A stretch of DNA of 64,000 nt from Lacinutrix neustonica (lineage in GTDB: Bacteria > Bacteroidota > Bacteroidia > Flavobacteriales > Flavobacteriaceae), in the NCBI RefSeq assembly GCF_026625145.1, contig NZ_CP113088.1:1529501-1593500 (forward strand), written 5' to 3'. Below the pieces are notes generated by a model, which was not told where the DNA came from, made no database searches, and saw only the letters and a program-made list of their open reading frames with translations. Position numbers and translations under genes: made by a program. Shown here piece by piece: positions 1,806 to 63,874 of the stretch (the first letter of the stretch is position 1; the number at the start of each line of letters is the position of its first letter).

Positions 1806-2285
1806 ATGGGAATTCCAAATGGCAAATACGATACAGAATTAATTCGCAGAACAAAAGAACTAATTCAATCATATAAAGGTTAATACAATTTGACACTTTT
1901 AATGAATGGAATATTGAGTTTAATTGTTTTACCACATCAACACAATGCCAGATTAAGAAAACTAAATTTTACGAATAAAGATTTAAATGATATTCCGAGA
2001 AATTCAATTTATATTAAACTCACCTAACTTTCATTTTGACAGACGTGATAAAAACAATGATTTAAAAAATCTATTAACCCGAATGCGAATGGAATCGCTC
2101 ATCAAAGAATTGAATCGATTAGTGAAGATAATAAATGGACAGGTGTAATTATACAGGACAGTCATAATGGAAATATTGGACTAAATCTTGAACTAAAAAC
2201 CTCTGAATTAAGAAAATTTGCATTTTATATTGCAGATGAATATTTAAAAGAACTGAATAAAAAGCCGGATGCCGTGTATAATTAA
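1806..2285 (+). pseudogene. HEPN-family RNase-like protein, broken as read
   Basis: The start is ATG 10 bp after the PIN-like gene. The frame opens with a TELIRRTKELI helix, followed by TLLMNGILSLIVLP. This recalls HEPN proteins of the pEK499-p136 type, from memory. Three defects interrupt it: an in-frame TAA at 1881 where GAA would fit; a +1 at 1995-2000 (CCGAGA, restored as CCGGA); and a -1 near 2083-2090. Restoration gives about 159 residues with RNGIAH at 2086-2102, the RNxxxH catalytic motif of HEPN ribonucleases. If the -1 is instead placed at the CCGA of 2083, the reading is RNANGIAH. The C-terminus is helical and ends at TAA 2283-2285. The +1 is the same error type that hits essential genes here, so the gene may be intact in the cell. 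Confidence 0.5.
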
Positions 2286-2356
2286 TGGCTAGTCCTCGCC
2301 TATTTACGAAAATCTCTTTTTTGCAAGCCATGCCTTTTAAAAAGGAACGCTAGCTC

Positions 2357-2963
2357 TTAAACCACCGTTACTGTAGTCAACCAAGAACCTTTGGTTACAT
2401 CCTGTAACACCCCTGTAACCGAGACTCGTTTTACTAAAGCGTTTCCCAAATTCATGCAGCCCAACCCGGTCATTCACCGCTGGGATACTGCTACCCATAA
2501 CTTTTAGCGTACCCTTTACGCTGGTGGTCTCTTCTTTGTTGGTCGCTATCTCGGCGTCGTACACGTCTTCTCCATAAGTAAGCTGTAACACAGGCGCGGT
2601 GGTAGTATCTATATCCAGTTCACGCACCAAATCTCCTGCGCAAGTGACCAGCAGGAAAGACCCCATGTCTCCAATAATGCTTATTTTTTGTTGCTGTACC
2701 CTGCCTTTAAAAACAGATTTATTTATAGAGTTATAGCCTAACCTGATCTCAATACCGCTCCCTACCTCAAAGGTTGCTGCGTCTGCTATAGGAAAGGCCC
2801 CTGTATTAGCATCGCCATCTACAAGCGTAATAATCGCTTCATCTACGGCATTAGCGACTTGTTTAATAACTACAGCATACACTTGCGCCTCAAACGGAAT
2901 GGAATCACAGTCTGATAAAATTTCGAAAGTCGCTAACTCTGATGCTATTGGTACTAGTGCCAT
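2357..2963 (-). CDS. VgrG-like tail spike/hub protein, internally shortened (frameshifted as read)
   Basis: The N-terminal 110 residues read like the gp27-type start of VgrG: IEIRLGY, then FKGRVQQQKISI, then LLVTCAG. The protein then jumps to the end of such a domain (LTYGEDVYDAEI), continues with GTLKVMGSSIPAVNDRVGL, and ends with a VTGVLQ..GSWLTT motif typical of this region. Roughly the middle of the hub is missing without loss of frame. A +1 at 2419-2424 (TCTCGG in the gene) spoils the last 30 codons; restored, the protein has about 201 residues. No other type VI, phage-tail or injection-system genes are near, so it is an orphan. It is probably a relic or a loose effector-delivery piece. 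Confidence 0.5.
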
Positions 2964-3242
2964 AGGGTTTCGTTTTATTTTGGGTCTAAGTTAAGCAATT
3001 ATAGCTAAAAACCAGCCAGTCGCTTTTTTCATGGCTACATGTCTTTTTAGTCGTGTTTTATAAATACAGAAGCCCAGAGTAACCGGTTTATACTTCATTT
3101 AAAAAAATACTATGCATGCATTGTATTTTTCACAATTAAAAATTACCTTATACCCATCTCAAAAAAACACAAAAAACACCCATAATTACACCATTAAATA
3201 GCTAAAAAACCCGATATTATTCAAAAACACAGCACAACGACA

Positions 3243-6200
3243 ATGAACATTAAAAAAATTCGGTTGCCAACAGAGGCGAGATTGCCATTAGAGTACTAAG
3301 AGCTTGTACGGAATTAAACATTACAACGGTTGCCATTTACACCTACGAAGACCGTTACTCACAACACCGTAATAAAGCCGATGAATCCTATCAAATTGGT
3401 GAAGACAACCAACCCCTAAAACCTTATTTAGATAGCGATGCCATTATTGCCCTCGCCAAATCGAAACAGGTCGATGCCATTCATCCCGGTTACGGTTTTT
3501 TATCTGAAAACTCTGAATTTGCTAGAAAATGTGCGGCTCAAGGCATTATTTTTATTGGTCCAGATCCGGAGGTTATGGATGCCTTGGGTGATAAAATTAT
3601 GGCTAAAAAAATAGCCGTAAAATGTAACGTGCCTATTATAGAAAGTAATAAAAAGAAACTCACCTCTTTAAAAGTAGCCATTAGTGAAGCCAATAGCATT
3701 GGCTACCCCCTAATGCTTAAAGCGGCCTCCTGGCGGTGGTGGCCGTGGCATGCGTATTATAAAAACAGCTGAAGATCTCGAGTCTAACTTCGATTCTGCA
3801 CGAAACGAATCGCTAAATGCCTTTGGTGACGACACCATGTTTTTAGAAAAGTATGTCGAAAACCCCAAACACATTGAAGTACAAATTGTCGCCGATAAAC
3901 ATGGCAATATACGTCACCTATTCGAACGGGATTGCTCGGTACAACGCCGTCACCAAAAAGTGGTCGAGATTGCACCCTCTTTTAACGTGTCGCAAAGCGT
4001 TAAAGACGCCCTTTATAAATATGCGGTAGACATTGCTACTGAAGTGAATTACAATAACATTGGTACCGTGGAGTTTCTCGTCGATGAAAAAGACCACATC
4101 TATTTTATCGAGGTGAATCCCCGTATTCAAGTGGAGCATACCGTTACCGAAATGGTCACGGGTATCGATTTGGTAAAAACACAAATCTTTATTGCTGGAG
4201 GCTACAAACTCTCAGACCAACAAATAAAAATATATGAACAGGAGTCTTTAGCCACTTATGGGTTTGCCTTGCAATGCCGACTAACAACAGAGGATCCCGG
4301 CAATAATTTTACACCAGATTATGGTAAAGTAACCACCTACCGTAGTGCTTCAGGTATGGGCATTCGCTTAGATGCCGGGAGTATTTATCAAGGGTATAAG
4401 GTGAGTCCGTTTTTCGATTCGATGCTAGTAAAAGTTTCTGCGCATGGTAGAACTTTAGATGGTGCCATAAGAAAAATGACGCGGGCCTTAAAAGAATTTC
4501 GTATTCGAGGGGTAAACACCAACATTCACTTTTTACAAAACGTGATTCAGCACGAGACCTTTCAGGAAGGTAAAGTCACGGTGAATTTTATTCAGAACAC
4601 CCCGTCACTATTCAAAATAAAACTCTCGCAAGACCGCACCTCTAAAGCCGTAGGGTATTTAGCAGAAGTGATTGTTAATGGCAATCCCGATGTGAAGTTT
4701 ATTGATGAGACCAAAGTGTTTAGAAAACCAAAAGTCCCAAAACACAATACGATTGAAACCTACCCAAAAGGGACTAAAGATTTACTCACAGAGCTGGGGC
4801 CGAACAATTTTGTGCCTGGTTAAAAGACGAGAAAAAAATACAGTATACAGATACGACCATGCGTGATGCACACCAGTCGTTATTAGCCACCGAATGCGAA
4901 CCTTCGACATGCTCAAGGTAGCTGAAAGTTTTGCTAAAAACCATCCCAATACCTTTAGTATGGAAGTTTGGGGCGGTGCTACTTTTGATGTGTGCTTGCG
5001 TTTCTTACACGAAAGTCCGTGGACCCGCTTAAGAGAATTACGTAAAGCGGTACCCAACATCTTATTCCAAATGCTCTTGCGCGGGTCTAATGGCGTGGGT
5101 TACAAAGCCTATCCCGATAATTTAATCGAAGCTTTTGTAGAGAAATCTTGGGAAAATGGTGTGGATATTTTTAGAATTTTCGATTCTTTAAATTGGGTAA
5201 AAGCCATGGCTCCAAGCATTAGTTATGTGCGCAATAAAACAGGTGGTATTGCCGAAGGTGCGATAAGTTACACCGGCGATATTTTAGATGTCAACCAAAC
5301 CAAATACGACTTAAAGTATTACATGCAACTGGCTAAAGATTTGGAGAATGCCGGGGCACATATGATTGCCATAAAAGACATGGCAGGCTTATTAAAACCT
5401 TATGCGGCTACAGAATTGGTTGGCGCATTAAAAGACACGGTAAACGTGCCAATTCATTTACATACGCATGATACCTCATCCTTACAAACCGCGACCTATT
5501 TAAAAGCGATTGAAGCGGGTGTTGATGTGGTTGATGTGGCGCTTGGCGGATTATCCGGATTAACGTCTCAACCCAATTTTAATGCGGTGGTTGAGATGAT
5601 AAAATACCAAGAACGCGCCCATGATTTTGACATGACCAGCTTAAACCAGTTTTCTAATTTCCGGGAAGACACCCGCGAGTTGTACTACCCCTTTGAATCT
5701 GGATTAAAAGCTGGTACCGCAGAAGTCTTTAATCATGAGATTCCTGGCGGACAGTATTCAAATTTGCGTCCGCAAGCCATAGGACTAGGCCTTGGCGATC
5801 GTTTTGAAGAGGTTAAAGCCATGTATGCCCAAGTGAATACGCTCTTTGGTAATTTAATAAAAGTAACCCCAAGCTCTAAAGTCGTTGGTGATATGGCCAT
5901 TTTTATGGTCACCAATAACTTTACGACCGAAGATATCATGACCCGAGGCGAGGAAATTTCGTTTCCCGACTCTGTGATTAGTTTCTTTCAAGGCGATTTA
6001 GGGCAACCGGTTGGCGGCTTCCCAAAGAAACTTCAGAAAATAATTCTAAAAAACAGAAAGCCGTACACCGATAGACCGAATGCACATTTGGACCCTATTG
6101 ATTTTGATGAAGCATTTGCAGCCTTTAAAAAGAAATTCCAAAAAGGCTTTACACGGGCTATAGAGATGGAAGATTTCTTATCCTATACCTTATACCCTAA

Positions 6201-6693
6201 AGTATTTGAAGCCGCACATGAGAATTATAAAAACTACGGTAATTTAGCCTTAATACCCACACAGAATTTCTTTTATGGCATGAAGCCGCGTGAAGAAACC
6301 TTAATCGAATTAGAGCCTGGAAAAACCATTATTGTAAAATTACTTTCAGTTGGGATTCCTAACGATGACGGTTTGCGCACCGTATTTTTTAAGGTGAATG
6401 GCGAAAATAGATTTGTAGAGGTTCTAGACAAATCGCTAAATATTACTAAAGAAGAAAACGCAAAAATTGACACAGAAAATACCAATCATATTGGCGCCCC
6501 TTTACAGGGGTCTTTATATAAAGTCTTGGTAAAAAGAGGTCAAGAGATTAAAGAAAACGATCCCCTATTTATTATCGAAGCCATGAAAATGGAAACGACA
6601 GTAACCGCCTTCAAATCGGGAAAAGTAAAAGCGGTGACCTTAAAAGAAGGGAGTATGGTAAAACAAGATGACTTAATTTTAACTATGGACTAA
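3243..6693 (+). CDS. pyc: Pyruvate carboxylase (four frameshifts as read)
   Basis: The enzyme converts pyruvate, bicarbonate and ATP to oxaloacetate (anaplerosis). The restored length is about 1150 residues, the normal size of the single-chain enzyme. Domain order: biotin carboxylase (VANRGEIAIRV near the start, HPGYGFLSEN, glycine-rich ATP loop at about 3730, IEVNPRIQVEHTVTE), carboxyltransferase (TMRDAHQS, FRIFDSLN, HLHTHDTS), the PC tetramer domain, and a C-terminal biotinyl domain with the EAMKMET biotin-lysine site. Frame breaks lie at 3260 (CTGG read CGG), 3731 (extra T), 4800 (CCGGA read CCGA) and 4890 (CCCGA read CCGA). The net length change agrees modulo 3. The ATG at 3243 gives the family's usual MNIKKI start. 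It is divergent from the VgrG-like gene across 279 bp. Confidence 0.93.
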
Positions 6694-7169: not shown

Positions 7170-9005
7170 ATGATACACGCTAAACAAATATCCCGTTTAT
7201 TGGTTCTCTTATTATGTATTGGAACCTTCTATATTACACAAGGTCAAACCGTGCCTGTTTTTGAAAATGGAGAAGCTCAAATTGTTGAAGGCTTTAATAA
7301 TCCGAGAAGATTGGATAAGGCATGATCTTTGGGTAGAAACGACATTTAACACCGATGGTGATGCTAAACCGAGACCGGATGCATGTTTCAGTCACAAGAC
7401 CGTTACAAACCGCTACAGAAGCTTTACAACTCCCGGTGGTTTACGAAACCAGCCCTTATTACTCCGGTGTCGCACCGGATGTCCCTAATATGATGTGGAA
7501 TGTGGAACATGAACTTGGCGAAGCTTCAACCATTGCTCGTGCACATCCTGAAGTTAAACGTACAGGAAAACGCCCAATCATTTCTAATTCGCTAATTAAG
7601 GAGTGGGTCCCGCGCGGTTATATTGTAGTGCATTCCTCTTCTCCGGGCACTGGATTATCACAAGGTAGCCCAACCGTGGGTGGTCCCAATGAATCCTTAG
7701 CTCCAAAAGCAGTGATCGATTGGTTAAATGGCAGAGCCAAAGGCTTTACCACACCGAGATGGAAATGAAGAAGTTTATGCCACCTGGACCACAGGAAAAG
7801 TAGGCATGACTGGAACGTCGTACAACGGCACCTTACCTATAGCGGCTGCTACAACGGGCGTTCAAGGCCTAGAAGCCATCATACCAATTGCTCCTAATAC
7901 CTCGTATTATCACTATTACAGATCTAACGGCTTGGTGCGTTCGCCTGGGGGTTATCTTGGTGAAGATATAGATGTACTGTATGATTTTATTCATAGTGGC
8001 GATGAAAGCAAACGCGCATACAGCAACAGGACCATTCGCGATAATGACATGCGGAATGGTATGGATAGACTTACCGGTGATTATAATGATTTTTGGGCTA
8101 GCCGTGATTATTTAAATCAGATGGAAAACATGACGGCAGCGTTATTAATGTCGCATGGCTTTAATGATTGGAATGTGATGCCGAGAGCACAGTAATCGCA
8201 TCTATCAACAAGCCAAAAAACAAGGCTTACCAACACAAATATATTACCACCAAAACGGCCATGGTGGCCCCCCACCTATGCGCATGATGAACCGTTGGTT
8301 TACAAGATATTTACATGGTGAACAAAATGGCGTAGAAAATGACAAGCAAGCCTGGATTGTTAGAGAAAATGACACTCGTGATAATCCTACTGCTTATGGT
8401 GCGTATCCTAATCCATTAGCACAACCAGTGACACTGTATTTAAATAAAGGCGGCAACGAAGTGGGCGAGCTAACAAGAAGAAACAAGAGTCGTCAAAAAA
8501 CAGAAACGTTAATTGACAACTATTCTATTTCACGGTGAAGATCACGCCAAAGCCAAAACTTCTAAAAACCGTTTATTATATACCACACCTATTTTAACTA
8601 AAGACTTACACCTTCTCGGTGAAAGTGAAATCACCATTAGTGTAACCAGCAATAAACCAGCAGTAAATCTATCGGTTTGGTTAGTATCGTTGCCATGGGA
8701 AAATGATTCCAAATTAATTACCGATAATATTATCACACGCGGTTGGGCGGATCCTCAAAATAATGAATCGTTAAGCAAGAGTACGCCTATTAGATCTGGA
8801 ACGTTTCACACGTTAACCTTTAAATTACAGCCGAGACGACCAAATTATTAGAGCGGGACAACAAATAGGTTTAGTGATTTTTTCAAGTGACAAAGCATTT
8901 ACGTTACATCCAAAACCCGGCACAACCCTTACCGTAGATTTAGATGAAACGCATCTAACACTACCAGTGGTTGGCGGAGAAGATGTCTTTAAAAAAAGCT
9001 TCTAA
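7170..9005 (+). CDS. Secreted CocE/X-Pro dipeptidyl-peptidase-like serine hydrolase (frameshifted as read)
   Basis: The restored protein has about 609 residues. An N-terminal signal peptide (residues 1-25, hydrophobic LLVLLLCIG, cut near TQGQ) is followed by a peptidase S15 alpha/beta-hydrolase. The nucleophile elbow is GTSYNG in GKVGMTGTSYNG, the catalytic His probably lies in QNGHGG (about 8255), and a PepX_C-like beta domain follows (NLSVWLVSLPW). Such enzymes cleave dipeptides after proline or hydrolyse small esters; the substrate is unknown. Frame breaks at 7302, 7369, 7754, 8181 and 8831 are all CCGAGA (+1), and one extra A lies near 8526. Removing six bases gives an exact multiple of three. 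It has the highest error density in the window. Confidence 0.82.
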
Positions 9006-9094: not shown

Positions 9095-10387
9095 TTGAAA
9101 AATCTTTATAATTATTTAAATAACGAAAATGGCACGCGCGTTTGTGAAGGTATTACAGATGACGCTTGCGAGCACGTTGCTAAAAATTATTTTCTAATTA
9201 TTTTTAGCAACGTATTTACTAAACTAGGAGACACGTTAAGTAACCCAAAGACCGTATTGACCTGGCTCATGAGTTACGTTAATGCGCCAGTTTACCTCAT
9301 CAGTCTTATTGTGCCCATAAGAGAGTCGGGGTCTATGTTGCCTCAAATACTACTCTCACAATATGTGAGTCAAAAACCCATTAGAAAATGGATTTGGGTT
9401 GTGGGCTCTTTTTTACAGTTTCTCTCAGTGGCCTCTATGGGTTTTATTGCCTTAAAGTATAAAGGGGTACAGGCCGGCGGACTCATTATTGTCGCTGTCA
9501 TTTTATTTAGTCTGTCCGGAAGTATTTGCTCGATTTCGTCGAAAGATGTGTTAGGAAAAAGCATTCCAAAAACCGGACGGGGAAGATTAAAAGGTTATAC
9601 CGCTTCCGTTTCCGGACTGCTGGTTTTGGCAGTGGGGCTCTTTCTATTGTATAAATCTAAAACAGAAGCCACGATTGCCTTCTACAGCACACTTATTTTT
9701 TTTGCCGCTGCCATGTGGTTTATCGCTGCTATTATTTATTCAAGAATAAAAGAATTCCCTGGAGAAGTTGTGGTACCGGATAAAGACACACCCACCCTCT
9801 CCTCTAAAATCAATCTATTAAAAAAAGACAAACCTTTTAGAGATTTTGTGGTAGCGCGCTCCCTATTACTCTGTTCGGCATTAACAGCTCCGTACTATAT
9901 CCTTCTTGCTCAAAACAACATAGGCAAGGACACCTATCTACTGGGTTTATTTATTATCGCCAATGGCGTTGCTTCCATTATTAGCGCTCCAATCTGGGGT
10001 AAATTCTCAGATAAATCGAGTAAAAATGTCATGGCCATTGCCGTACTTATTGCCTCTTTTTTAGGGATTATTACTTTTCTAATCATCACGTATTCTAACA
10101 CTATAAAACATATACTATGGATTTATCCTGTAGCCTTTTTTATATTAGGCATTGCACATGGCGGTGTTAGACTAGGACGAAAAACCTACATCGTTGACAT
10201 GGCAACAGGCAATAAACGAACAGATTATGTGGCGATAAGTAATACAACCATTGGTTTGATTTTGTTGGTAACTGGAGGCTTAAGTGCCCTTGTTTCGTTG
10301 ATCTCTATAGAAGGTGTAATTTTAACCCTTTCCCTTTTTGGTCTCCTAGGGGCTTACAAAAGCTACAAGCTCCCAAATGTTGAATAA
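9095..10387 (+). CDS. MFS transporter
   Basis: This is a 430-residue integral membrane protein with about 12 hydrophobic segments and a central hydrophilic stretch around residues 215-245 that splits it into two halves, as in the major facilitator superfamily. A loop with WGKFSDKSSKNVMA resembles the MFS motif A between helices. The start appears to be TTG at 9095, since no ATG lies nearby. The N-terminal 30 residues are soluble (GTRVCEGITDDACEHVAKNYF). The substrate is unknown. It follows the hydrolase by 89 bp and could be co-expressed with it, but a peptide or sugar link is speculation. The frame is intact. Confidence 0.75.
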   Translation: MKNLYNYLNNENGTRVCEGITDDACEHVAKNYFLIIFSNVFTKLGDTLSNPKTVLTWLMSYVNAPVYLISLIVPIRESGSMLPQILLSQYVSQKPIRKWIWVVGSFLQFLSVASMGFIALKYKGVQAGGLIIVAVILFSLSGSICSISSKDVLGKSIPKTGRGRLKGYTASVSGLLVLAVGLFLLYKSKTEATIAFYSTLIFFAAAMWFIAAIIYSRIKEFPGEVVVPDKDTPTLSSKINLLKKDKPFRDFVVARSLLLCSALTAPYYILLAQNNIGKDTYLLGLFIIANGVASIISAPIWGKFSDKSSKNVMAIAVLIASFLGIITFLIITYSNTIKHILWIYPVAFFILGIAHGGVRLGRKTYIVDMATGNKRTDYVAISNTTIGLILLVTGGLSALVSLISIEGVILTLSLFGLLGAYKSYKLPNVE

Positions 10388-34986: not shown

Positions 34987-36904
34987 TTATTTCTTGTTTT
35001 TATTTTGACTTTGTTTTTGCTGCTCTGCCTGCTCCATCATCTCCTTCATTTTGCGTTGAAACTTATTTTCTTTTTTAGGTTTCGCTTTTTGAACTTGAAT
35101 GTTAGCATGAATTTTATCTTCGTCTAGCACATAATTTTTAATAACAATGAGAATACCAATACTAATTAAATTAGAGATAAAATAGTACAAACTCAATCCG
35201 AAGCGTACTTATTAAAGAATACCATCATCATAATTGGTGCAAAATAAATCATATACTTCATCATTTTTGCCATATCGGGCATCCCTTCTTGTTGGGGTTG
35301 TGCCATGGATGCAGAGTTTTGACCGGTTGTCATTTTCATATAAAAGAAAATAGCGATGGCAGCCAAAATTGGAAATAAACTCACGTGATCACCATAAATA
35401 GGAATATCTACAGGGAGTTTAAAAACTTCATCGTAAGACGACAAATCATCTGCCCAAAGGAAACTTTTTTGTCTTAAGGCAAAGGCTGTTGGAAAAAACA
35501 TAAACAAAGCATAAAACACAGGCATTTGAATTAAGGCTGGTAAACAACCGGCTAACGGACTTGCTCCTGCTTTGTTTTGCAAGGCCATTGTTTCTTGCTG
35601 CGCCTTCATTTTATTGTTTTTATGCTTCTCACGTATAGCATCTAGTTCGGCTTAAGCACTTTCATTTTCATTTGCGACAAATACTGTTTGTACTGTACAA
35701 ATGACATGGCTAATTTGATTAAAACCGTCATAACTATAATGGCAATACCAAAGGGTAGAAATGAGCTTAAAAAACCAAACAACGGAATAAACAAGTACTC
35801 ATTTATCCAGCCAAAGAGCCCCCAACCTAGGGGAATGCTTTCTTCTAAATTTTTATCATATTTTTTTAAAATTTTACTATCGGTCGGGCCGTAGTATAAT
35901 TTTAAATTCTCATTAATCTCATTCCCGCTAAGCACCAAAGCCGTTTTTGCTGAAAATTGTTTTGTAAAAAGTGTATCCACTTTTTCATCTTCAACCAAAT
36001 CTTTAGAACCTAAAACGACTGACTTAAACGGCCTGTTATCTGCCACCAAAATTGAGCTAAAGAAATGCTGTCTAAAAGATAACCATTCCACGTCCTTTTC
36101 TACCTCTTCATCTTCCCCTCCCTGAGCCAATTTATCAATATTACCGTCGTCGTGTTGGTACGTTAATCGCGTATAACGATTCTCGTAAGAGACACTTTGA
36201 TCATGACGCATCGTTTTTTGAGTCCAATCTAAATTGATGTCTTGAGAACTGTTTATTATACCACTCAACCCTTGCGATTTGATAGAAAAATCTATCATAT
36301 AATCATTTGGCTTGATGACATATAAATACTCTAAAAATTGTGTTTCAGAGACCTTAAGTTTCATAGAAACTATCGTGTTTTCTCCACTTTTTGACACGGA
36401 TGGTTGAAAGTATAAATCTTCAGTATTTAAAATGCGACTGTCTGTAGTTCCAAAATTGATGTTAAAACTCGCATTTTTATTTTTTACTAGGTAGATGGGT
36501 AGCGAATCAAAATCTACAAATTGATCTAATTTCACTTCAGATAAATGCCCGCCTTTATTGGAGAACTTTAACTTTAGTACGCCATTATCAATAGTGGTTT
36601 CTTTGTTTGTAGCTGAAGGCAAGGTCGCAGAATAAGCAAAAGCACCTAGTTTATTTTGAAATGCTATTTGTTGTAATGAATCTGAAACAGTTACATTAGA
36701 AAAATCTTCAGTTGTCACAACCTTAGTAGCTTCTTTTTTAGTCGTTTCTTTTGCATTACGGGCATCTAATTGCTCTTGTTTTGCTTTTTCTTCTGCTGCT
36801 ATTTCTTCTTCAGATGGCTTACTTTGCCATAACATAAATAGTAAAATCCCAAAAATAAGCACGAAGCCTATAATTGAATTAACATCTAATTTTTTTTCTT
36901 CCAT
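34987..36904 (-). CDS. yidC: Membrane protein insertase YidC (two frameshifts as read)
   Basis: YidC inserts membrane proteins in the inner membrane, with or without SecYEG. The restored length is about 639 residues, normal for the Bacteroidota form. It has an N-terminal membrane helix (IIGFVLIFGILLFMLW), a large periplasmic beta domain, then the conserved core with PLAGCLPALIQMPVFYALF, and a basic C-terminal tail (KMKEMMEQAEQQ). Missing bases at 35647-35650 and 35198-35201 split it; correction gives VLKPELDAIREKH and KYASGLSLYYF. It lies directly downstream of pyrG, probably in one operon. Confidence 0.93.
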
Positions 36905-41852: not shown

Positions 41853-43384
41853 TTATTCCCACTCAATAGTTGCTGGGGGCTTACTACTAATATCGTACAC
41901 CACACGATTAACACCTTTGACTTTATTTATAATATCGTTACTCGTTTTTTGTAGAAATTCATAAGGTAAGTTAACCCAATCGGCGGTCATGCCATCTGTA
42001 CTTTCAACAGCTCTCAAAGCCACACATTTTTCGTAAGTTCTTTCGTCTCCCATAACACCAACGCTATTCACAGGAAGCAAAATAGCTCCGGCTTGCCATA
42101 CTTTATCGTAAAGCCCAGCATCTTTAAGCCCATTAATAAACACGGCGTCTACTTCTTGTAAAATGCGCACTTTTTCTGCAGTGATATCTCCAAGGATACG
42201 AATAGCTAAACCCGGTCCTGGAAAAGGATGGCGTCCCAACAATTGCTTATCCATATCCATTGAGGCGCCGACGCGTCGTACCTCATCTTTAAATAAGGCT
42301 TTCAGTGGCTCAACGATTTTGAGCTTCATGAAATCCGGTAAACCGCCAACATTATGGTGACTTTTTATAGTCGCACTTGGACCACCAGTAGCACTTACAC
42401 TTTCTATAACATCCGGATAAATGGTGCCTTGCGCTAACCATTTTACGTCTTGTATTTGGTGTGCTTCATCATCGAAAACCTCAATAAACACGCGACCTAT
42501 AGCTTTTCGTTTAAGTTCGGATCACTTTTACCTGCTAAAGCATCAAGAAAACGTGTTGAAGCATCTACCCCTTTCACGTTTAAACCCATGCCCTTATATT
42601 GTTCTAAGACTTGTGTGAATTCGTCCTTTCGTAGCAAGCCGTTATTGACAAAAATACAGTACAAATTTTCACCAATAGCTTTATGTAATAACATCGCCGC
42701 AACTGATGAATCTACCCCGCCGGATAGACCTAAAACAACTTTATCTTTTCCTATTTTTTTCTGTAGGGCTTCTACCGTTTCGTCTACAAAACTATCTGGT
42801 GTCCAATCTGGATTTACTTGGGCTATTTTGATTAAAAAATTTTCAAGCAATTGTTTGCCATCCGTGGAATGATAAACCTCGGGATGAAATTGTATGGCGT
42901 AGGTTGTTTCTCCTTCTATTTTAAACGCGGCATTTTTCACGTCGTGTGTACTTGCTAAGAGCATTCCTTTTGTAGGCAAAGATTTAATAGTATCACTGTG
43001 ACTCATCCAAACCTGACTCCCTTTAGAAATCCCATTAAAAAAGGGATCGTCTTTCACATAACTCAAGTGTGCTCTACCGTATTCTCTTGTATTCGATTCG
43101 GCGACTTCTCCTCCTGAAAAATGGGCTAAATATTGAGCCCCATAACATACCGCCAACATAGGTTTTTTACCTCTAATTTCTGATAGTTCCGGATGAAATG
43201 CCTCTTTTGATCTAACAGACATTGGACTCCCCGAAAGGATTACCGCTTTATAACTGTCTATGTCTTTTGGAGGATTGTTGAATGGATGTATTTCGGAATA
43301 GATGTTAAGTTCTCTAACTCTACGCGCAATAAGCTGTGTGTATTGCGATCCGAAATCTAAAATTAATACCTTGTCGTGTTGCAT
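41853..43384 (-). CDS. guaA: GMP synthase, glutamine-hydrolysing (one frameshift as read)
   Basis: GuaA makes GMP from XMP, ATP and glutamine. The glutaminase domain has [11 protein letters not shown] with the catalytic Cys and QFHPEVYHS. The ATP-pyrophosphatase domain has [14 protein letters not shown], and the C-terminal dimerisation domain ends in [11 protein letters not shown]. The restored length is about 511 residues. The frame breaks at 42517-42520 (CCGGA read CCGA); restored [14 protein letters not shown] joins the two parts. Of two close ATG codons the second (43384) is chosen. There is no second copy in this window, so a real break would be very harmful. Confidence 0.94.
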
Positions 43385-43568
43385 GCACAAAAATAGTAAT
43401 TGATTTTATAATTACTAATTTATAAATGGCGAATTTTCCATTGTTTTATTAACAGTGATTTTTACTCAAAAAAACATCCGGATTTCAAGTGGGCACGTGC
43501 CTTATTGACACCATGACACTCCTGCTGTTTTTAATTAAGCCAGTAAAAAACCGATGCTCAAACTTTAG

Positions 43569-45174
43569 TTACAATGTTAAAATTGTGAATTCGCCTTTTA
43601 AAGGCTCTAAATTTTGAATTAATGAGGCAATTAATACGTCTCCAAATTCTAAATACAATTCTGAAAAATTTTTATGTCGTTCCTGCAAAGTCTGATTAGG
43701 AAACAACTCATTTTGAAGGGCGGTCATTCGCGCGACTTGATCTTTAAGTTTTCTTTTTTGAGCGGTTAGCAAGCGCTTTTCTAGATGCTTTAATCCATTA
43801 ATTTGCTTTTTCTCCTGTGCAGCAACAGCTCCAATAAAAGATTTATCTGTATGTGTTGCAAGTTTATAAAGTTTTTGGAACTGCGATTTTAAATGTTCAA
43901 GTTGTTCCGAAAAATCAATGTCAATATTCGAGATAGCACGCACGCGTTTATTAATAAAAGCATCACGTTTTAAGAAAATAGTTTCATTAGATATATCAAG
44001 TTTTTCTAATTTTTCAGCTTGTTGCTTTGTTTTAATTAAAACAGAGTTACGAAGCAACAACATAGGAAATACTATATTGTGGGCTTCAAAGTTAGCCTTT
44101 AATTGAAACCAATAGGCCAATTCGCCGCCGCCGCCTATATAACATAAGTTTGGCAAAATCACTTCTTGGTACAAAGGTCTTAGAATAACGTTAGGACTGA
44201 AACGTTCCGGATAGGCGTTAACTTCATCTAAAATTTGACTTTGCGACCAAGCGATTTTAGTGTTTAAAACTCTATAAACCTTATTTTCATAAACAATACG
44301 TTCTCGAAGATTATTAGATAAATAGAAGAGATTAATTTCTCGTGGATTCACTTGAATTGGATAATTCACCCCTTTTAAATCTTCAATAAAGGCATTTGTT
44401 TTAGAGACGGTCTTAAAGGATACTTGCTCTACTAATTCTTTCTTAAGCTGTGGAATAAATAATCTTTTTAAGGCTGCATTATTAGCTTCCAATACTACTA
44501 ACCCATAATCTGCAAATAATTCATTAGCCAAAAAGCGTGTAGCCTCTGCCAAATTATTATGCCCTACATAGGCGCTTTTAAAAAGCACCTTAAGGGTTTC
44601 GGCATTCTTTCCTATCCCTAATTCTTTAGAAAAAATATCATAAACAGCGTCTAAACCCACCGTATCGAGTTCTCCAACAGCACCTGTTGCTTCGCGATTC
44701 CACCGTAGTTTCTTACCATTAAAATTAAAATAATTAATTTCTTCAAAATCATGATCTTCAGTAGCCATCCAGTAGATTGGAACAAAATTACAATTAGGGT
44801 ACTTTGACTTTAATTGTGTTGCCAAATTAATAGTCGATACTATTTTATGTAAAAAATATAAGGGCCCTGTAAATAAATTAAGTTGATGCCCTGTTGTTAC
44901 TGTAAACGTATTTGAATCTTTTAAACTTTTAATGTGATTTAGGGTAATGCTAGAGGCATTAAGGTTCTTATATTGAGACAACAGCGTTTCTGACAATACG
45001 GTTCTCGGATGCTTCTGAAAATTCCAAAGATTTTTCTTCCATTTGGATTTTAAAATTCTCAAGTTTTGGAAAACGGTTGTAAAGGGGGCTTAACGCGTCA
45101 GCCTCTGCTAAATAGTCTGCTATTAATTTTGAGAAATAGCCCGTGGCTTGAAACGAAATACTGTCTGTTGGCAT
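43569..45174 (-). CDS. bshC: Bacillithiol biosynthesis cysteine-adding enzyme BshC (one frameshift as read)
   Basis: BshC adds cysteine to glucosaminyl-malate in the last step of bacillithiol synthesis. The restored length is about 534 residues, as usual. Seen: TVTTGHQLNLFTGPLYFLHK, YWMATEDHDFEEIN, YIGGGGELAYWFQLK, and the C-terminal coiled coil around 43700-43850. A +1 at 45003-45008 (CCGAGA in the gene) separates the first 45 residues from the rest; correction gives SEASGTVLSETLL. The gene starts at ATG 45174. No other bsh genes are in the window. Confidence 0.9.
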
Positions 45175-47010: not shown

Positions 47011-47974
47011 TATTTTCCGGGTTTATATTTTGCGTTATCAAATAGTTCTTTAGACTCTTTTGCCAACATTTGTTCGAATGAAACCTCATTATTTGCCATA
47101 TAAGATCTCACTATTTGCCATCCTAAAAATTTTCCAATTTCCCCAGGGGATTCATTATCTATTTCTTGTAAATAGAATTTGGAAAACGGTGCTGGATTAA
47201 TAAAACGATTGGGCAGTTTTGAATCTGTACTAAACAATAATTCTTTATCTACAAAGTAACGCCAAATCTCTTCTTCATTGGCCTTAGCCCATTCCAACTG
47301 TTCAGATGTATAACCGATTTTGTCAAAATCTGTTTTAAAAGGAATGACCTTATCTTTAAAATAAAGAATCTTACCTGCATAAATTAATTCGTCTAATAGC
47401 GTTTTTCGTGTTTGCTGAAGCGTATACCGCTCTCCATATTTAGTAGCCAAATCGACCACAAGTTGACCAGGTTCAAGATGAGATTTTATGTAATCTTGGA
47501 TCCCTTGATAAAAATGATGATCACTTCCTAAATAAGTGTCTAAGGACACTAATACAATAGTATCGGTTACCACGACTTTATTTCTATAATCTACATTGGA
47601 GGTTGTGGTTACCACTCTAGGGACATTAAACGCTGTAAAATAATATTTCAAATGTTTAAAAAGAGATGCTATTTCCTGCTTCTCGGTGTTTAAGTCTTGA
47701 AATTTATTTAGTGTTTCTGTTTGTAATTCTTGCTGTAATGTGTCTTTCATTTGTGCTAACCAAAAGGAATCTTTATACTTTTCTCGGAAACATAAACGGA
47801 TACGCTTGTTTTAAATCATGAAGCTTATCTCGGTGTCGTTTTGGCAAAAGCCCTTTCAAAACGCTCTATTTTAAAAGGCACCTCTATTTGGGCAATCTCT
47901 GCTTCCACTGTGCTATCATTTTTACAAGAAGTCAATGCTAAAAACAAAAATATCAAAAAAATATATTTATACAT
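47010..47974 (-). CDS. gldB: Gliding motility lipoprotein GldB (two frameshifts as read)
   Basis: The lipobox LALTSC lies near residue 17 after a hydrophobic stretch (YIFLIFLFLAL). The restored length is about 320 residues, normal for GldB. FKIERFERAF and the C-terminal GEIGKFLGWQIVRSYM are typical. Two +1 changes at 47828-47833 and 47782-47787 (both CCGAGA in the gene) break the frame; correction gives TTPDKLHDLKQAYPFMFPEKYKDSF. ATG 47974 is preferred because it gives a compact lipoprotein signal; ATG 47995 is possible. It is divergent from nadE. Confidence 0.87.
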
Positions 47975-48066
47975 ATTAGTTAGTGGTCTATTCATTTTTA
48001 TACTTAAAGCGTTTGCTCTATTTTTGTTTTGCAAAGGTACTATTCTTTGTTTAAAATTCTTATAAA

Positions 48067-48854
48067 ATGCAAACAGAAAAGGTTGTCAATCATATTGTAA
48101 ATTGGTTAAAAGCGTATGCCATTAACGCCAATGTTAATGGTTTTGTTATTGGTATTTACGGTGGAATAGATTCTGCCGTCACCTCCACTTTGTGTGCCCA
48201 AACGGGTTTGAAAGTGTTGTGTATTGAAATGCCAATTCATCAAGCAGAAAGCCACGTTTCACGTGCCCAAGAGCACATAGCACAACTCAAATCAAAATTC
48301 AACAATGTAAGTGATACTCGAACAGATTTAACCCCTGTCTTTGAGGAATTTAAAACCGAAGTTTCTCTTACAGGCAAAAAAGAAATTGTTGATATGGCCT
48401 TGGCCAATACGCGTGCGCGTTTACGCATGACAACTTTGTACTATCACGCGGGCTTATTAGGTTTATTGGTCGCGGGTACTGGCAACAAAGTCGAAGACTT
48501 TGGAGTTGGATTTTACACAAAGTATGGTGATGGCGGTGTAGATTTGAGTCCCATAGCAGATTTACTAAAAAGTGAAGTTTACAAAATTGGTACGTTTCTA
48601 GACGTTTCTGCTTCGATAATGAAAGCAGCACCAAGCGATGGCTTATTTGGTGATGCTCGTAGTGACGAGGACCAAATAGGAGCTTCTTACCCGAATTAGA
48701 ATGGGCCATGCAAATGGATGAGGCTGGAAAAACAGAAAACGATTTCACTGGTCGCGAGAAAAACGTATTTAAAATATATAAGCGATATAATACTTCGAAC
48801 AAACACAAAATGCAAGCCATTCCTATTTGCGAAATTCCTAAAGAATACAAATAA
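48067..48854 (+). CDS. nadE: NAD synthetase, ammonia-dependent (one frameshift as read)
   Basis: NadE makes NAD from deamido-NAD. The restored length is about 262 residues, the short ammonia-dependent form. Visible are ATP-loop residues GGIDSAVTS, the NTRARLRMTTLYY stretch, and GTGNKVEDFGVGFYTKYGDGGVDLSP. The residue before GGIDS is Tyr where the family has Ser (SGGxDS). A missing base at 48691-48694 (CCGGA read CCGA) ends the frame early; correction gives ASYPELEWAMQMDEAG through to IPKEYK. It is divergent from gldB across about 90 bp. Confidence 0.9.
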
Positions 48855-49614: not shown

Positions 49615-51532
49615 TTAGGCCGAATACTCTTTAACCTCCTCTAATATCGATTTATTAACTTCGTTTTTAATCGCCATGGTTTGTTGTTGAAAGCCAATCA
49701 CTTTCTTATCTATTAAATGGCAACGTAAACTTAAAATAGTATCACTTACAAGCTGTGCTATGGTTTCATCCTTGGGTTTAGGATAAATATCTTTACGATT
49801 CCAATCTGAAAGTTCATAGCGCTCATCTTCCATTAAAATGGTAGTGATTTGATTTCCTACTTCTGCATCTACATTTTTTATAAACTCCTCTGAAGAAAAT
49901 TCGGATTCTGATTTAAGGTTTCAATAATTTTATAATATAGATTTTTAAATTGCTCGTTCGAAAACTCCATTTCATCATCTTGTAGGTCTAAAAACACTTT
50001 TTCAAACACCTTAGTTTGATGAATAACGGGTTCTAAAACCAAATCACCGGTCTCATTTTCTTTTAAAACCAAATCTTCAAATTCCTCTGTTCTATTACCA
50101 TAAAGCAAAAGGATTTCTATAATTTTACGTTCTAAAACATACTGTACATCGACCTTTTTTACAGGCTCTTGATTTTTAATTACATCAAATGCTTTTGGCT
50201 GATTTTGCGACGTTTTTGGTGTACCCTGAGCTTCTTTATTATTAATTTGTGCCGAGTACTAAAAAGCACCTCTTCACGAATATCCATAATGCGTGCACAT
50301 TCCTGGATGTAAATTTCCTTTTTTATTCGGTCCGGTATTTTAGAAATACTGTTAATAATATCTCTTATCGTTTCGGCCTTTTTAATTGGATCATTTTTAG
50401 ATTCCTCGTATAAAACCGACGCTTTAAATTGAATGAAATCCTTAGCATTCTCGTTTAAATAATGCGTCAGTTCTTCTAAGATATTTGTTTTAGCAAAACT
50501 ATCAGGGTCCTCTCCTTCGGAAAGGTACACACTTTAACGTTCATGCCTTGCTCAAGAATTAAGTCAATGCCACGAAGAGAGGCGCGCATTCCAGCAGCAT
50601 CCCCATCAAAAAGTACCGTGATGTTTTTAGTAAGTCGGTTAATCAATCGAATTTGATCACTGGTCAACGCGGTTCCAGGAGGAGGACACCACGTTATGTA
50701 TTCCAGTTTGATGAAACTGTATCACATCTGTATAACCTTCAACCAGGTAGCAATTATCTTCTTTTGCTATGCTTTGTTTTGCATGATAAATACCATAAAG
50801 TACTTTACTTTTATGATAGAGGTCACTCTCCGGAGAATTGAGGTATTTAGCGGCTTTTTTATCGTTGGTTAAAATACGACCACCAAAGCCTAACACGCGA
50901 CCACTCATGCTTTGTATGGGAAACATTACACGCCCTTTGAAACGGTCAAATTGCTTGTTCTCCTTTACAATAGTTAAGCCCGTACTTTCTAAAAATTCTA
51001 ATTTGTAGCCTTTTTTTATCGCTTCATCCGTAAACGCACTCCATTGGTCTAACGAATATCCTAAATCAAATTTCTTTATGGTCTCTTCTGTAAACCCACG
51101 TTCTTTGAAATAGCTTAAGCCAATCGCTTTACCTGGATCTGTTTTATGTAAAATATTTTGAAAATATTGGCTAGCGAATTCGCTTACTAAATACAAACTT
51201 TCCCGCTTATCTTGTGCTTCTTTTTGTTCGTTAGATTGCTCGGTTTCCTCAATTTCAATATTGTACTTTTTAGCAAGATACTTTATGGCTTCAGGATAAG
51301 TAAAATGCTCGTGCTCCATTAAAAATGCAACCACGTTACCTCCCTTTCCTGTACTAAAATCTTTCCATATTTGTTTCACAGGCGACACCATAAAACTTGG
51401 CGTACGCTCTTCACTAAAGGGGCTCAAACCCTTAAAACTACTTCCTGATTTTTTTAGCTGAACAAAATCACCAATAACCTCCTCTAGTCGAGCCGTTTCA
51501 TATACTTGGTCTATGGATGTTTTTGATATCAA
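49615..51532 (-). CDS. dnaG: DNA primase (four frameshifts as read)
   Basis: DnaG makes RNA primers for replication. The restored length is about 640 residues. The N-terminal domain reads GLSPFSEERTPSF and WKDFSTGKGGNVVAFL, where classical primases have the zinc CHC2 ligands; here these are not Cys or His. The TOPRIM core follows: YLVEGYTDVIQ, VLFDGDAAG and PEGEDPDSF. The C-terminal half contacts the helicase. Breaks: 50680 (+1, CCTGG), 50517-50520 (-1), 50252-50255 (-1) and 49911-49914 (-1). The length agrees modulo 3. No gene this essential could survive four real breaks. Confidence 0.92.
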
Positions 51533-59499: not shown

Positions 59500-59609
59500 A
59501 TTTCTATAGTTCTAAGTAATTAGTTGATAGTCGCTAGAATCCTAAACCTTTTATAATTTCAAGCAGATTCCTTCCAACGTCTAAAGACTAAAGACCAAAT
59601 TTCTAATTA

Positions 59610-59984: not shown

Positions 59985-59986
59985 AA

Positions 59987-60103: not shown

Positions 60104-60107
60104 AAGT

Positions 60108-60323
60108 TTAGTATCTATAGGTTATTCGAGCCTTAGTCAAATCGTAAGGACTCATTTCTAATTTTACTTTATCACCCGGTAACAACTTAATATAATGCAT
60201 ACGCATTTTACCAGATATATGTGCGGTCACAATGTGACCATTTTCTAATTCGACACGAAACATAGCATTAGATAATGCTTCTATAATGGTTCCGTCTTGT
60301 TCTATTGCTGCTTGTTTTGCCAT
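60108..60323 (-). CDS. infA: Translation initiation factor IF-1
   Basis: The 71-residue OB-fold protein has [38 protein letters not shown] and the end [15 protein letters not shown] 60323 is chosen; an earlier ATG 21 bp upstream would add seven atypical residues. It stands between secY and rpmJ, the usual order. Confidence 0.95.
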
Positions 60324-60400
60324 ATCTATTTTTTTAGTAACCAATTAGCAAACATCTTGCCAAGATTTTTCAATCTATTGATTTCTAAACTACTCTTAAC

Positions 60401-61759
60401 TTACGCTACTGCTTTTCTATTTTTACCGGTTTTCATCAAGCCGTCATAGTGTCTATTTAACAAGTAAGAATTCACTTGTTGCATAGTATCAATTGCTACG
60501 CCAACCATAATTAAAAGTGATGTTCCTCCAAAAAACAGAGCCCATCCCGATTGAATGCCCATTAGCTGATATACCACTGCTGGAAACACTGCAATTAAAG
60601 CTAAGAATATAGATCCTGGCAGTGTAATTTGTGACATGATTTTATCCAAATATTCTGAAGTTTCAGAACCTGGACGAATACCAGGAATAAAACCACCACT
60701 ACGTTTTAAATCATCTGCCATTTTATTGGTAGGCACTGTTATCGCTGTATAAAAGTATGTAAATACTATAATTAATAAAGCGAACACAATATTATACCAC
60801 AAACCAAACATGCTGTTTCCTCCAAAATTAGCTACTAACCATGATCCCGCTGAGCTGTCTTTCATGAAGCCTGCTCCACCTATTAATCCAGGTACGAACA
60901 TAATGGCCTGAGCAAAGATAATTGGCATCACTCCCGAAGCATTAAGCTTTAAAGGAATGAACTGTCGAGCTCCTCCAAATACATTCTTTTCGTACCCTCC
61001 AGTAGCAGAACGTCCGGCATACTGCACAGCAATTTTTCTTACTGCCATAACTAATAGTATCGATGCTGCGATGATAGCAAACCAAATAACGATTTCAAAC
61101 AAAATCATCATTAAACCATTTCCACTCGTAAATCTAGCATTCATATTCTGTAAGAAAGACTTAGGTAGTGTTGCTATAATTCCAACCATAATAAGTAATG
61201 AAATACCATTACCAATACCCTTGTCTGTAATTTTCTCTCCTAACCACATGGCAAAGATACAACCTGTTACTAAAATAACAATTGATGAGAAATAGAATAC
61301 GCCGCCTTGTCCTAATAAAAATGCACTGCTTGGAATTCCAAACATAGGCTGTAAACTAGCTAAGTATCCTGGTGCTTGAACTAAACAAATACCAATCGTT
61401 AACCAACGTGTGATTTGGGTGATTTTCTTTTGACCACTAGCACCTTCCTTTTGTAATTTTTGTAAATAAGGAATCGCAATTCCCATTAACTGAACCACAA
61501 TAGAAGCAGAGATATAAGGCATAATACCTAAAGCAAAAACAGAAGCATTAGCAAATGCGCCTCCTGTAAAGGCATTTAATATTCCTAAAATACCACCATC
61601 TGTGCTATCCTGAAGACTACCTAATTGGGATGCATCAATACCAGGTAATACTACCTGAGCGCCAAATCGGTATACTAATAACAAACCTAATGTAAAAATG
61701 ATTCGGTTTCTTAGTTCCTCAATTTTCCAAACATTTTTTAACGTATCTATAAATTTCAT
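60401..61759 (-). CDS. secY: Protein translocase subunit SecY
   Basis: The 452-residue channel protein of the Sec translocon has ten membrane helices. Typical parts are RIIFTLGLLLVYRFG, the plug region with LNAFTGGAF, MPYISASIVVQLM, TRWLTIG, and KRSGGFIPGIRPG in the cytoplasmic loop. It lies 15 bp after rplO in the spc operon. It is intact although several neighbours are broken. Confidence 0.96.
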   Translation of the reverse strand: MKFIDTLKNVWKIEELRNRIIFTLGLLLVYRFGAQVVLPGIDASQLGSLQDSTDGGILGILNAFTGGAFANASVFALGIMPYISASIVVQLMGIAIPYLQKLQKEGASGQKKITQITRWLTIGICLVQAPGYLASLQPMFGIPSSAFLLGQGGVFYFSSIVILVTGCIFAMWLGEKITDKGIGNGISLLIMVGIIATLPKSFLQNMNARFTSGNGLMMILFEIVIWFAIIAASILLVMAVRKIAVQYAGRSATGGYEKNVFGGARQFIPLKLNASGVMPIIFAQAIMFVPGLIGGAGFMKDSSAGSWLVANFGGNSMFGLWYNIVFALLIIVFTYFYTAITVPTNKMADDLKRSGGFIPGIRPGSETSEYLDKIMSQITLPGSIFLALIAVFPAVVYQLMGIQSGWALFFGGTSLLIMVGVAIDTMQQVNSYLLNRHYDGLMKTGKNRKAVA

Positions 61760-61774
61760 ATTATTATATGGGTC

Positions 61775-62226
61775 TTATAAAGTTACTGCTTCTCCTCCTG
61801 CTGCTTCAATAGCGGCTTTTGCTGTAGCGGTAAATTTATGTGCAGTTACATTTAATTTTGTTTTTAATTCTCCTCTTCCTAAGATTTTAACCAGTTCATT
61901 TTTACCAGCTAAACCTAAAGAAACGATAGTATCAAAATCTAATGTGTCTTTAATTTTCTTGTCATCAACTAATTGTTGTAAAGTATCCAAGTTGATCCCT
62001 TGGTGCTCTTTACGGTTGATGTTTGTAAAACCAAACTTAGGCACACGTCTTTGAAGCGGCATTTGACCCCCTTCAAAACCAACTTTCTTAGAATAACCGG
62101 AACGAGATTTTGCTCCTTTGTGACCACGGGTTGCCGTACCACCTTTTCCGAACCTTGTCCTCTACCTATTCTTTTACCTTGATTCTTAACTGAACCTTCC
62201 GCAGGTTTTAAATTACTTAAATCCAT
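61775..62226 (-). CDS. rplO: 50S ribosomal protein L15 (one frameshift as read)
   Basis: The restored length is 150 residues. The N-terminus MDLSNLKPAEGSVKNQGKRI and the glycine-rich segment are typical, and the C-terminal part PLQRRVPKFGFTN to the end is intact. A missing base at 62148-62151 (GGG read as GG; CCCGA read CCGA on the plus strand) splits the frame; correction gives GQGSGKGGTATRGHKG. The gene is essential, so a real break is very unlikely. Confidence 0.95.
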
Positions 62227-62240
62227 TTTTCAGTATGTTG

Positions 62241-62423
62241 TTATTTAGTTTCTTCAACAGAAACTAAGTGATTAACTTTTCTTACCATTCCTAAAATATT
62301 AGGAGTGTTCTCGTGCTCTACAGTCTGACCAATCTTTTTTAAGCCTAAAGCTAGTAATGTTAACTTTTGTCTTTTAGTACGATTGATAGCGCTCTTAACT
62401 TTTGTTACTTTTATTTTTGCCAT
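62241..62423 (-). CDS. rpmD: 50S ribosomal protein L30
   Basis: The 60-residue protein has KIKVTKVKSAINRTKRQKLTLLALGLKKIGQTVEHENTP (read in parts) and GMVRKVNHLVSVEE, the complete family pattern. It stands between rpsE and rplO, with short gaps on both sides. Confidence 0.95.
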   Translation of the reverse strand: MAKIKVTKVKSAINRTKRQKLTLLALGLKKIGQTVEHENTPNILGMVRKVNHLVSVEETK

Positions 62424-62434
62424 TTCTGTAAATA

Positions 62435-62959
62435 TTAACCGTTAAAAACTTTCTCCAATGAAACACCTCTCTCACGAGCGATAGTGTGTGCACTTCTCAA
62501 TTGCAATAATGCATCGAAAGTTGCTTTAACTACGTTATGTGGGTTTGATGAACCTTGAGACTTAGATAATACATCGTGCACTCCAACTGCTTCTAAAACT
62601 GTTCTTACAGCTCCACCAGCAATAACTCCTGTACCAGGAGCTGCAGGAATGATGTTTACTCTTGCTCCACCAAATTTACCTTTTTGTTCGTGAGGTAATG
62701 TACCTTTTATAATAGGAATTCGAACTAGGTTCTTTTTAGCATCTTCAATAGCTTTTGCAATTGCACTCGCTACATCTTTAGATTTTCCTAAACCGTGTCC
62801 TACAACACCTGCTTCATCACCAACCACTACGATTGCTGAAAAACCAAATGCTCTACCACCTTTTGTTACCTTAGTAACTCTCTGTACACCAATCAAACGA
62901 TCTTTAAGATCTAATCCACTTGGTTTTACTAACTCTGCGCTTTTGTATTTTTGATACAT
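62435..62959 (-). CDS. rpsE: 30S ribosomal protein S5
   Basis: The 174-residue protein has [65 protein letters not shown] and the end [11 protein letters not shown]. It takes part in decoding fidelity. It starts 6 bp before the rplR stop region in the spc operon. The frame is intact. Confidence 0.96.
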
Positions 62960-62965
62960 AATTTC

Positions 62966-63322
62966 TTAGAATTTAAGTCCTGCTTCTCTAGCTCCTTCAG
63001 CTAACGATTTTACTCTTCCGTGATATAAGTATCCACCTCTATCGAAAGCGATAGTACTTATTCCAGCTTTAATTGCTTTTTCGGCCACTGACTTTCCTAC
63101 TAATGTAGCTAATTCAGACTTATTACCTTTTGCAGAACTAATGTCTTTATCTCTTGAAGAGGCTGCTGCTAAAGTTTTACCTGTAACATCATCAACTACC
63201 TGAGCATAAATCTCTTTATTACTTCTATAAACAGCTAACCTAGGTCGTGCTTCTGTACCGTAAACTACCTTACGAATTCTGCTTTTGATTCTTAATCTTC
63301 TTTCGTTCTTTGTTAACGCCAT
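62966..63322 (-). CDS. rplR: 50S ribosomal protein L18
   Basis: The 118-residue protein has [33 protein letters not shown] (read in parts), AVAEKAI-type [12 protein letters not shown] and [24 protein letters not shown]. The length is normal. It binds 5S rRNA. It lies 10 bp after rplF. Confidence 0.96.
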
Positions 63323-63332
63323 AACTTAATTA

Positions 63333-63874
63333 TTATGCTGATTTACCAGCTTTTCTTCTTAGTATTTCACCTACAAACTTGATACCTTTTCCTTTATAAG
63401 GCTCTCGGCGGTCTAAAACCACGAATTTTCGCAGCTACTTGTCCAACAAGTTGTTTGTCGTGTGAGGTTAACTTAATGATTGGATTTTTACCTTTATCTG
63501 ATACTGTTTCCACCGTTACTTCGGTGCAATATTCATGACAATGTTGTGAGAAAAACCTAAAGCTAACTCTAATTTGTTACCTTGGTTACTTGCTCTATAT
63601 CCTACTCCTACTAGCTCAAGCTGTTTAGTCCATCCTTTTGAAACACCTTCAATCATATTATTGACTAGTGATCTGTATAAACCATGCTTTGCTTTCTGTT
63701 CTTTAGAATCTGATGAACGTGTTACATACACATTACCTTCTTCTACTTTAACTTCTACAGTATCGTAATTTTGAGATAATTCTCCCAATTTTCCTTTTGC
63801 TGTAATAACGTTATCTTTTACTTCTACTGTAATTCCTTCGGAATTGCAACTGGGTTATTTCCTATTCTTGACAT
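63333..63874 (-). CDS. rplF: 50S ribosomal protein L6 (three frameshifts as read)
   Basis: The restored length is 180 residues, normal for L6. MSRIGNNPVAIPEGI starts it, KQLELVGVGYRASNQGN marks the first domain, and KGKGIKFVGEILRRKAGKSA ends it. Breaks: 63838-63841 (CCGGA read CCGA), 63521-63524 (CCGGA read CCGA) and 63403-63408 (CCGGA read CCGAGA). The net length agrees modulo 3. Three breaks in an essential ribosomal gene show that the changes are not biological. Confidence 0.95.

Follow-up and report, generated by a model that had tools for sequence, protein, structure and literature searches.

One-base frame breaks in a Lacinutrix neustonica assembly are bound to the word CCAGA and are probably miscalls at a modified base

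Introduction

How can a growing cell appear to carry one-base frame breaks in dnaG, rplF, rplO, guaA and yidC all at once? The question is raised by a 64,000-nt stretch of the genome of Lacinutrix neustonica (G000, a single 3.9-Mb contig; C1:1529501-1593500, hereafter the window, in which positions are counted from the first base). An earlier note on its sequence had counted some 44 single-base changes spread over about 24 genes, tied them to one short motif inferred as CCGGA, and preferred motif-bound miscalling to flow-based sequencing error. Comparison with a congener confirms that the breaks are bound to a single word, but this word is CCAGA. The breaks look like sequencing mistakes at CCAGA, and most of the broken genes are likely intact in the cell.

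Broken genes in the window

The CTP synthase of the window is 90% identical to its counterpart in an uncultured Lacinutrix, the best match among the 80 loci retained from the named collection. A relatives search returned twelve further genomes of the genus, ten of them at 99-100% completeness; the completeness of G000 is estimated at 84.5%. As a yardstick we chose the congener with the most similar CTP synthase among the relatives (G004; 96%), which is collinear with the window at a DNA identity of 81-94% in the main alignments. The congeners may have been sequenced by other means. From 102 open frames over 100 kb of G004, 57 proteins with a syntenic same-strand match were aligned to the window using a frame-aware aligner that permits one-base frame jumps.

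These alignments placed 48 one-base frame breaks in 24 of the 57 genes. When the earlier note's own product list was searched within 9 bases of each break, 45 of the 48 showed a product (CCGA 22, CCGAGA 18, CCAGGA 3, CCGTGA 2). For CCGA this is a loose criterion, since the word is frequent (208 copies in the window, both strands counted); one of the 45, located where the sequences have diverged, may be a chance match. A fifth listed product, CCGTA, proved to be a same-length form. All six genes that had been named as broken (dnaG, rplF, rplO, guaA, yidC and nadE) are broken, and their names were confirmed. The family scan covered the products of 23 of the 24 broken genes, several of which matched no family. 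Affected features include the following, with breaks from the G004 alignment and, except for pyruvate carboxylase (named from the G004 copy), names from the family scan.

1995..63841, both strands: stretch with the apparently miscalled CCAGA forms CCGGA, CCGA, CCGAGA, CCAGGA and CCGTGA; the whole genome is affected
3263..6690, plus strand: pyruvate carboxylase gene, 4 one-base frame breaks
7170..8999, plus strand: Xaa-Pro dipeptidyl-peptidase-like gene, 6 frame breaks
34990..36904, minus strand: yidC, 2 frame breaks
41856..43390, minus strand: guaA, 1 frame break
43572..45174, minus strand: bshC-like gene, 1 frame break
47013..48034, minus strand: gldB-like gene, 2 frame breaks
47983..48851, plus strand: nadE, 1 frame break
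49618..51532, minus strand: dnaG, 5 frame breaks
61778..62226, minus strand: rplO (L15), 1 frame break
63336..63854, minus strand: rplF (L6), 3 frame breaks

The three breaks without a product lie in a T-run, next to a C-run and at an A-rich diverged spot. Outside the word, sequence quality is thus good, with three such breaks per 55.6 kb of coding sequence. Flow-based sequencers err at homopolymers, and two of the 48 breaks do fall within or next to homopolymers five to eight bases long, the third product-less one being the A-rich place. The other 45, however, occur away from homopolymers, at a word with no run above two, so that we consider flow error, the alternative raised earlier, exceedingly improbable.

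CCAGA as the source word

At 32 of the 48 breaks, G004 has CCAGA within 9 bases on either strand; 5.6% of coding positions are that close to the word (p 8e-29). At thirteen further breaks the window has a product but G004, diverged at these places, lacks CCAGA; three have neither. The fraction of broken genes follows the number of CCAGA words in the G004 copy: 2/14 with none, 8/23 with one or two, and 14/20 with three or more.

Site-by-site DNA alignments to G004 (86,391 columns, covering the window together with portions of three more stretches of G000) gave an indel tally free of the product list. Both neighbouring bases were unchanged at 115 of 199 G004 CCAGA sites. In G000 these flank-conserved sites read CCGGA (24), CCGA (15), CCAGA (13), CCGAGA (8) and CCGTA (6), the remainder being scattered. 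Indels were found at 25 of the 115 sites as opposed to 24 of 1285 at fifteen one-mismatch words (p 7e-16). The 25 comprise 15 CCGA, 8 CCGAGA and 2 CCGTGA, and in all of them the second C precedes a G.

Word counts in the window, tested against shuffles, show the same loss and gain. CCAGA occurs 25 times, compared with 72 in the shuffles, while CCGGA (89; shuffle mean 47.6) and CCGAGA (27; mean 11.3; 13 on the plus and 14 on the minus strand) exceed all 100 shuffles. The excess of CCAGGA is weak (22 against a mean of 15.1, reached by 4 of 100 shuffles).

CCGGA itself was rejected as the source word. Of its 89 copies in the window, 87 could be aligned, and G004 has CCGGA at only 3 of them, CCAGA at 32, CTGGA at 12 and different words at the others; the CTGGA class is at least partly the mirror image of the palindrome TCCGGA. 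CCGGA replaces CCAGA at 33 of 88 places, compared with 17 of 389 over nine analogous A-to-G pairs. CCGGA is the commonest product of CCAGA, by A-to-G substitution, and not an intact motif. Four CCGGA sites had been cited as intact; the two listed here are CCAGA in G004, and the other two are neither CCAGA nor CCGGA there.

5554..5559: TCCGGA, CCAGA on the minus strand in G004; probably a frame-keeping product
9611..9616: TCCGGA, CCAGA on the minus strand in G004

Most CCAGA words in these genes begin a codon (or TCTGG does), and an A-to-G change there is usually silent. Accordingly 29 of the 33 frame-keeping substitutions are silent and 4 alter a residue. That these substitutions are errors as well is suggested by the contrast with G004 and by the indels that accompany them. 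Since CCGGA is the product and CCAGA the source, the search for a CCGGA or CCGG methyltransferase proposed as a follow-up would aim at the wrong specificity.

A wider palindromic target such as YCWGR was also considered and is not supported, CCTGA (kept at 34/72 sites) and TCAGA (55/92) both lying within the range of control words. The remaining pentamers of low retention are GC-rich or overlap CCAGA.

Genome-wide extent and flank dependence

The earlier note had placed the pattern at 1995..63841; stretch and whole-genome counts extend it to the entire genome. CCAGA density ranges from 0.1 to 0.75 per kb across eleven G000 stretches, the window among them, and from 1.75 to 2.35 across ten stretches taken from G004 and G002. 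Among 512 pentamer pairs compared between 264 kb of G000 and 300 kb of G004, CCAGA has the lowest z (106 vs 588, ratio 0.21) and CCGGA the highest (326 vs 92, ratio 4.0). Over whole genomes, TCCAGA occurs 465 times in G000 and 2192-3147 times in eight congeners, and CCGGAA 1894 and 130-552 times, respectively. Outside the genus these counts vary widely by genome (325 TCCAGA in G015, 5944 CCGGAA in G016). The ratio of TCCAGAA to its reversed control, ranked by inspection of the rows for 397 genomes of the family, is lowest in G000 (104 to 545, 0.19), followed by G424 (0.30). By TCCAGAA density alone G720 is equally low (56 in 2.2 Mb), but its reversed control is low too.

The outcome at CCAGA depends on the flanking bases. 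ACCAGAT is nearly spared (37 in 264 kb of G000 vs 45 in 300 kb of G004, ratio 0.93); for the remaining fifteen flank pairs the ratio is between 0 and 0.31. The mutual information of flank and outcome is 0.86 bits (60 sites, with the kept ones counted); 2000 shuffles average 0.42 and reach at most 0.74. In G000 the balance of CCGGA and CCGAGA also differs between flanks (p 5e-5); the weaker dependence in G004 (p 0.046) reflects ordinary sequence bias. The neighbouring words CCAGG, CCAGC and CCAGT are not depleted alike (0.95, 0.99 and 0.84 in G000 relative to G004); for CCAGG, this may mean that it is unmethylated or that the caller is familiar with it.

Such flank dependence is caller-like with or without a modified base, and a caller or polisher might simply be weak at plain CCAGA. 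A weakness of this kind should nevertheless recur, CCAGA being common, and by the same inspection of the 397 family genomes no other matches the low TCCAGAA ratio of G000; nor does it sit well with the near-normal counts of the three neighbouring words. We consider it improbable.

Still less probable are real mutations at CCAGA in the DNA of the cell. A genome-wide pattern tied to one word would suit them, and one of five genomes bearing a homologue of a candidate enzyme described below (G222) is low in CCAGA without an excess of CCGGA (103 vs 179 expected). They would, however, disable dnaG, rplF, rplO, guaA and yidC together in a growing cell, and deamination of 5-methylcytosine predicts CTAGA, found at 5 of the 115 sites, rather than A-to-G changes or one-base indels.

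Miscalls at a modified CCAGA

With one word, at most 3 of 48 breaks in other contexts, and genes hit that a living cell needs, motif-bound miscalling stands as the simplest explanation. We estimate a probability of about 0.85 that the breaks and the loss of CCAGA are consensus errors due to a modification of this word, on whichever base it may lie. The most likely source of the assembly is native nanopore reads that received no independent correction. CCAGA in the cell would bear a modified base, which the base caller would misread with an outcome set by the flanks, so that roughly four fifths of CCAGA sites would vanish from the consensus. A lost CCAGA would then appear mainly as CCGGA (in frame), CCGA (-1 base), CCGAGA and, rarely, CCAGGA (+1 base).

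Errors of this kind are known. Default nanopore models fail at the Dcm words CCAGG and CCTGG. In one benchmark these sites made up about 70% of all consensus errors, and such errors all but disappeared once the training set included Dcm-methylated DNA (PMC6591954); PMC6984161 gives a similar result. Later surveys describe strain-specific error words (PMC11610573, PMC12392509). Such errors are tied to a short word by a methylatable base, genome-wide and on both strands, as here, and the Dcm word CCAGG is one base apart from CCAGA. Relative to the 2024-2025 studies consulted, the word differs and the failure is far more severe, and platform and modification are what we infer in this case. Our literature searches on this motif found no report of nanopore errors at CCAGA. 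The artefact is very probably of the known kind, with a word not met in the literature searched.

In the Biopython site table, BspNCI has CCAGA as its site. Neisseria meningitidis carries 5-methylcytosine in this word, as MspJI cleavage confirmed, and the methylation is attributed to NEIS0771; of the two papers, one observed CCAGR and proposes that two enzymes are involved (PMC7046676, PMC7973814). The five-base word of BspNCI and NEIS0771 is identical to that found here.

We favour 5-methylcytosine at the second C of CCAGA as the modified base, with fair rather than high confidence. All 25 indels put a G after that C, and CCAGGA creates CCAGG; both would be expected if the caller had learned 5-methylcytosine in the contexts CpG and CCWGG.

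Candidate methyltransferases

The genome was searched with four family models (PF00145, PF01555, PF02384 and PF07669), and four DNA methyltransferase loci were matched. A previously postulated unseen methyltransferase has visible counterparts in the genome, each a candidate writer only. An additional weak match resembles, by eye, a protein methyltransferase of the PrmC kind, and further methyltransferases may exist beyond the four families.

C1:2245 kb (L123): helix-turn-helix (HTH) domain fused to a cytosine-5 methyltransferase, 493 residues, intact; PF00145 E 4.7e-85, TIGR00675 above cut-off
L123:349-1473, minus strand: HNH_2 nuclease, 374 residues, directly downstream of the cytosine-5 methyltransferase; PF13391 E 7.5e-11
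C1:851 kb (L140): type IIG enzyme, 1014 residues, open frame
L139: type I methyltransferase with a short specificity frame
C1:3107 kb (L133): N6/N4 methylase, 228 residues, open frame

A cytosine-5 enzyme suits a five-base word well, and this one is the leading candidate. That this HTH-fused enzyme adjoining the HNH nuclease would be the writer we rate at slightly better than even odds. Recognition words of type I systems are split, which argues against the type I system as the CCAGA writer; its specificity frame (L139:2588-3241, plus strand) has merely 217 residues and one Methylase_S match.

LlaJI-type systems are among the closest known counterparts. LlaJI-type cytosine-5 methyltransferases on Acinetobacter and Vitreoscilla plasmids share about 57% identity with the G000 enzyme over residues 120-488, and the target-recognition stretch, common to six genomes of the class and three proteobacterial plasmids, is strongly conserved. 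Unlike these plasmid enzymes, that of G000 carries an N-terminal HTH domain, and in place of their partners, an AAA ATPase and a LlaJI-family nuclease, it has a single HNH protein. Residues ~14-191 of this nuclease resemble the start of the LlaJI-type AAA ATPases (about 30% identity), as though the two had a DNA-reading domain in common, fused to different cutters. The C-terminal portion of the nuclease matches the HNH endonuclease in PDB 6yex. Beside one of the three plasmid methyltransferases, a very-short-patch-repair gene is annotated.

At E 1e-60 or better, the cytosine-5 methyltransferase was found in 8 of 395 genomes of the class, its own included. The two cytosine-5 methyltransferase loci of G004 that were compared encode a different enzyme (28-30% identity over parts). 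In samples of 60-200 kb from each of five homologue-bearing genomes no excess of CCGGA was detected (0.96-1.22). CCAGA was under-represented in one of them, G222 (0.57, rank 5 of 509), and ranged over 0.95-1.16 in the others. Smaller samples (20-40 kb) had given 0.38 for G222 and 0.67 for G068, and three plasmid stretches 0.97-1.02. These genomes lend no support to a CCAGA specificity of the enzyme. In G222 the low CCAGA without an excess of CCGGA may be real avoidance or a matter of codon use; its homologous methyltransferase stands in a row with frames resembling, by eye, Vsr, an AAA ATPase and a LlaJI-type nuclease.

Nature of the modified base

Within the same artefact, and thus as a variant of a modified CCAGA rather than an addition to its probability, the modified base could be N6-methyladenine. 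Its writer would be either the type IIG enzyme or the short N6/N4 methylase, and the caller would render the base as G, omit it or repeat it. Both genes are open frames, and the base that changes is the third of CCAGA. Enzymes of the MmeI kind of type IIG usually recognise six or seven bases, and the failure of all flank pairs except A..T is unlike such a reader. A change at the third base alone would also leave CCAGGA unexplained. In published work, one survey describes methylation errors as often being A/G ambiguities (PMC11610573), which suits adenine, while the sole documented CCAGA modification that we found is 5-methylcytosine (PMC7046676, PMC7973814). On balance we regard N6-methyladenine as unlikely, if the most serious competitor of 5-methylcytosine.

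Several points weigh against miscalls at a modified CCAGA in general, or against 5-methylcytosine from the HTH-fused enzyme in particular. An altered third base would account for most products too. One cytosine-5 methyltransferase acting on an asymmetric word should mark a single strand, yet most sites fail. The failure is unusually severe relative to a 2025 benchmark in which only 42 differences (6.5%) were potentially methylation-linked and most methylated motifs were error-free (PMC12392509). Finally, the signature is missing from the stretches sampled in all five other genomes that encode a homologue of the enzyme, although their platforms may differ.

A bolder extension of the 5-methylcytosine reading, which we offer tentatively and at less than even odds, is that the error spectrum names both base and word. 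The HTH-fused methyltransferase and the HNH nuclease would then form a CCAGA restriction-modification system with a single methyltransferase, and a caller meeting unexpected 5-methylcytosine would rewrite its neighbourhood into familiar contexts (CpG, CCWGG). CCAGG might also be methylated yet invisible, because callers know it.

A further missing word in the class

As a separate observation, CGNCG is almost absent from one genus of the same class (G029, G073, G110, G143, G174, G204, G231, G258 and G283). In G029 it occurs 0 times in 60 kb, against 122 CGCG and 117 CGNNCG. CGNCGAA and its reversed control number 2 and 2923 in G029, 1 and 2574 in G231, and 1 and 2164 in G110. Across all nine genomes CGNCGAA counts are 1-30, the higher ones often bunched on few contigs, perhaps contaminants.

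Implications

With 24 of 57 window genes broken, nearly always at CCAGA, the shortfall in the estimated completeness of G000 is probably in part due to this artefact. The protein set, pseudogene count and word statistics of the assembly, those of CCGGA and CCGA among them, mislead users. The assembly is at the same time a free readout of base modification, in which the word to look for is CCAGA rather than CCGGA. If the error spectrum does name base and word, miscalls in unpolished public assemblies could be mined to assign targets to methyltransferases.

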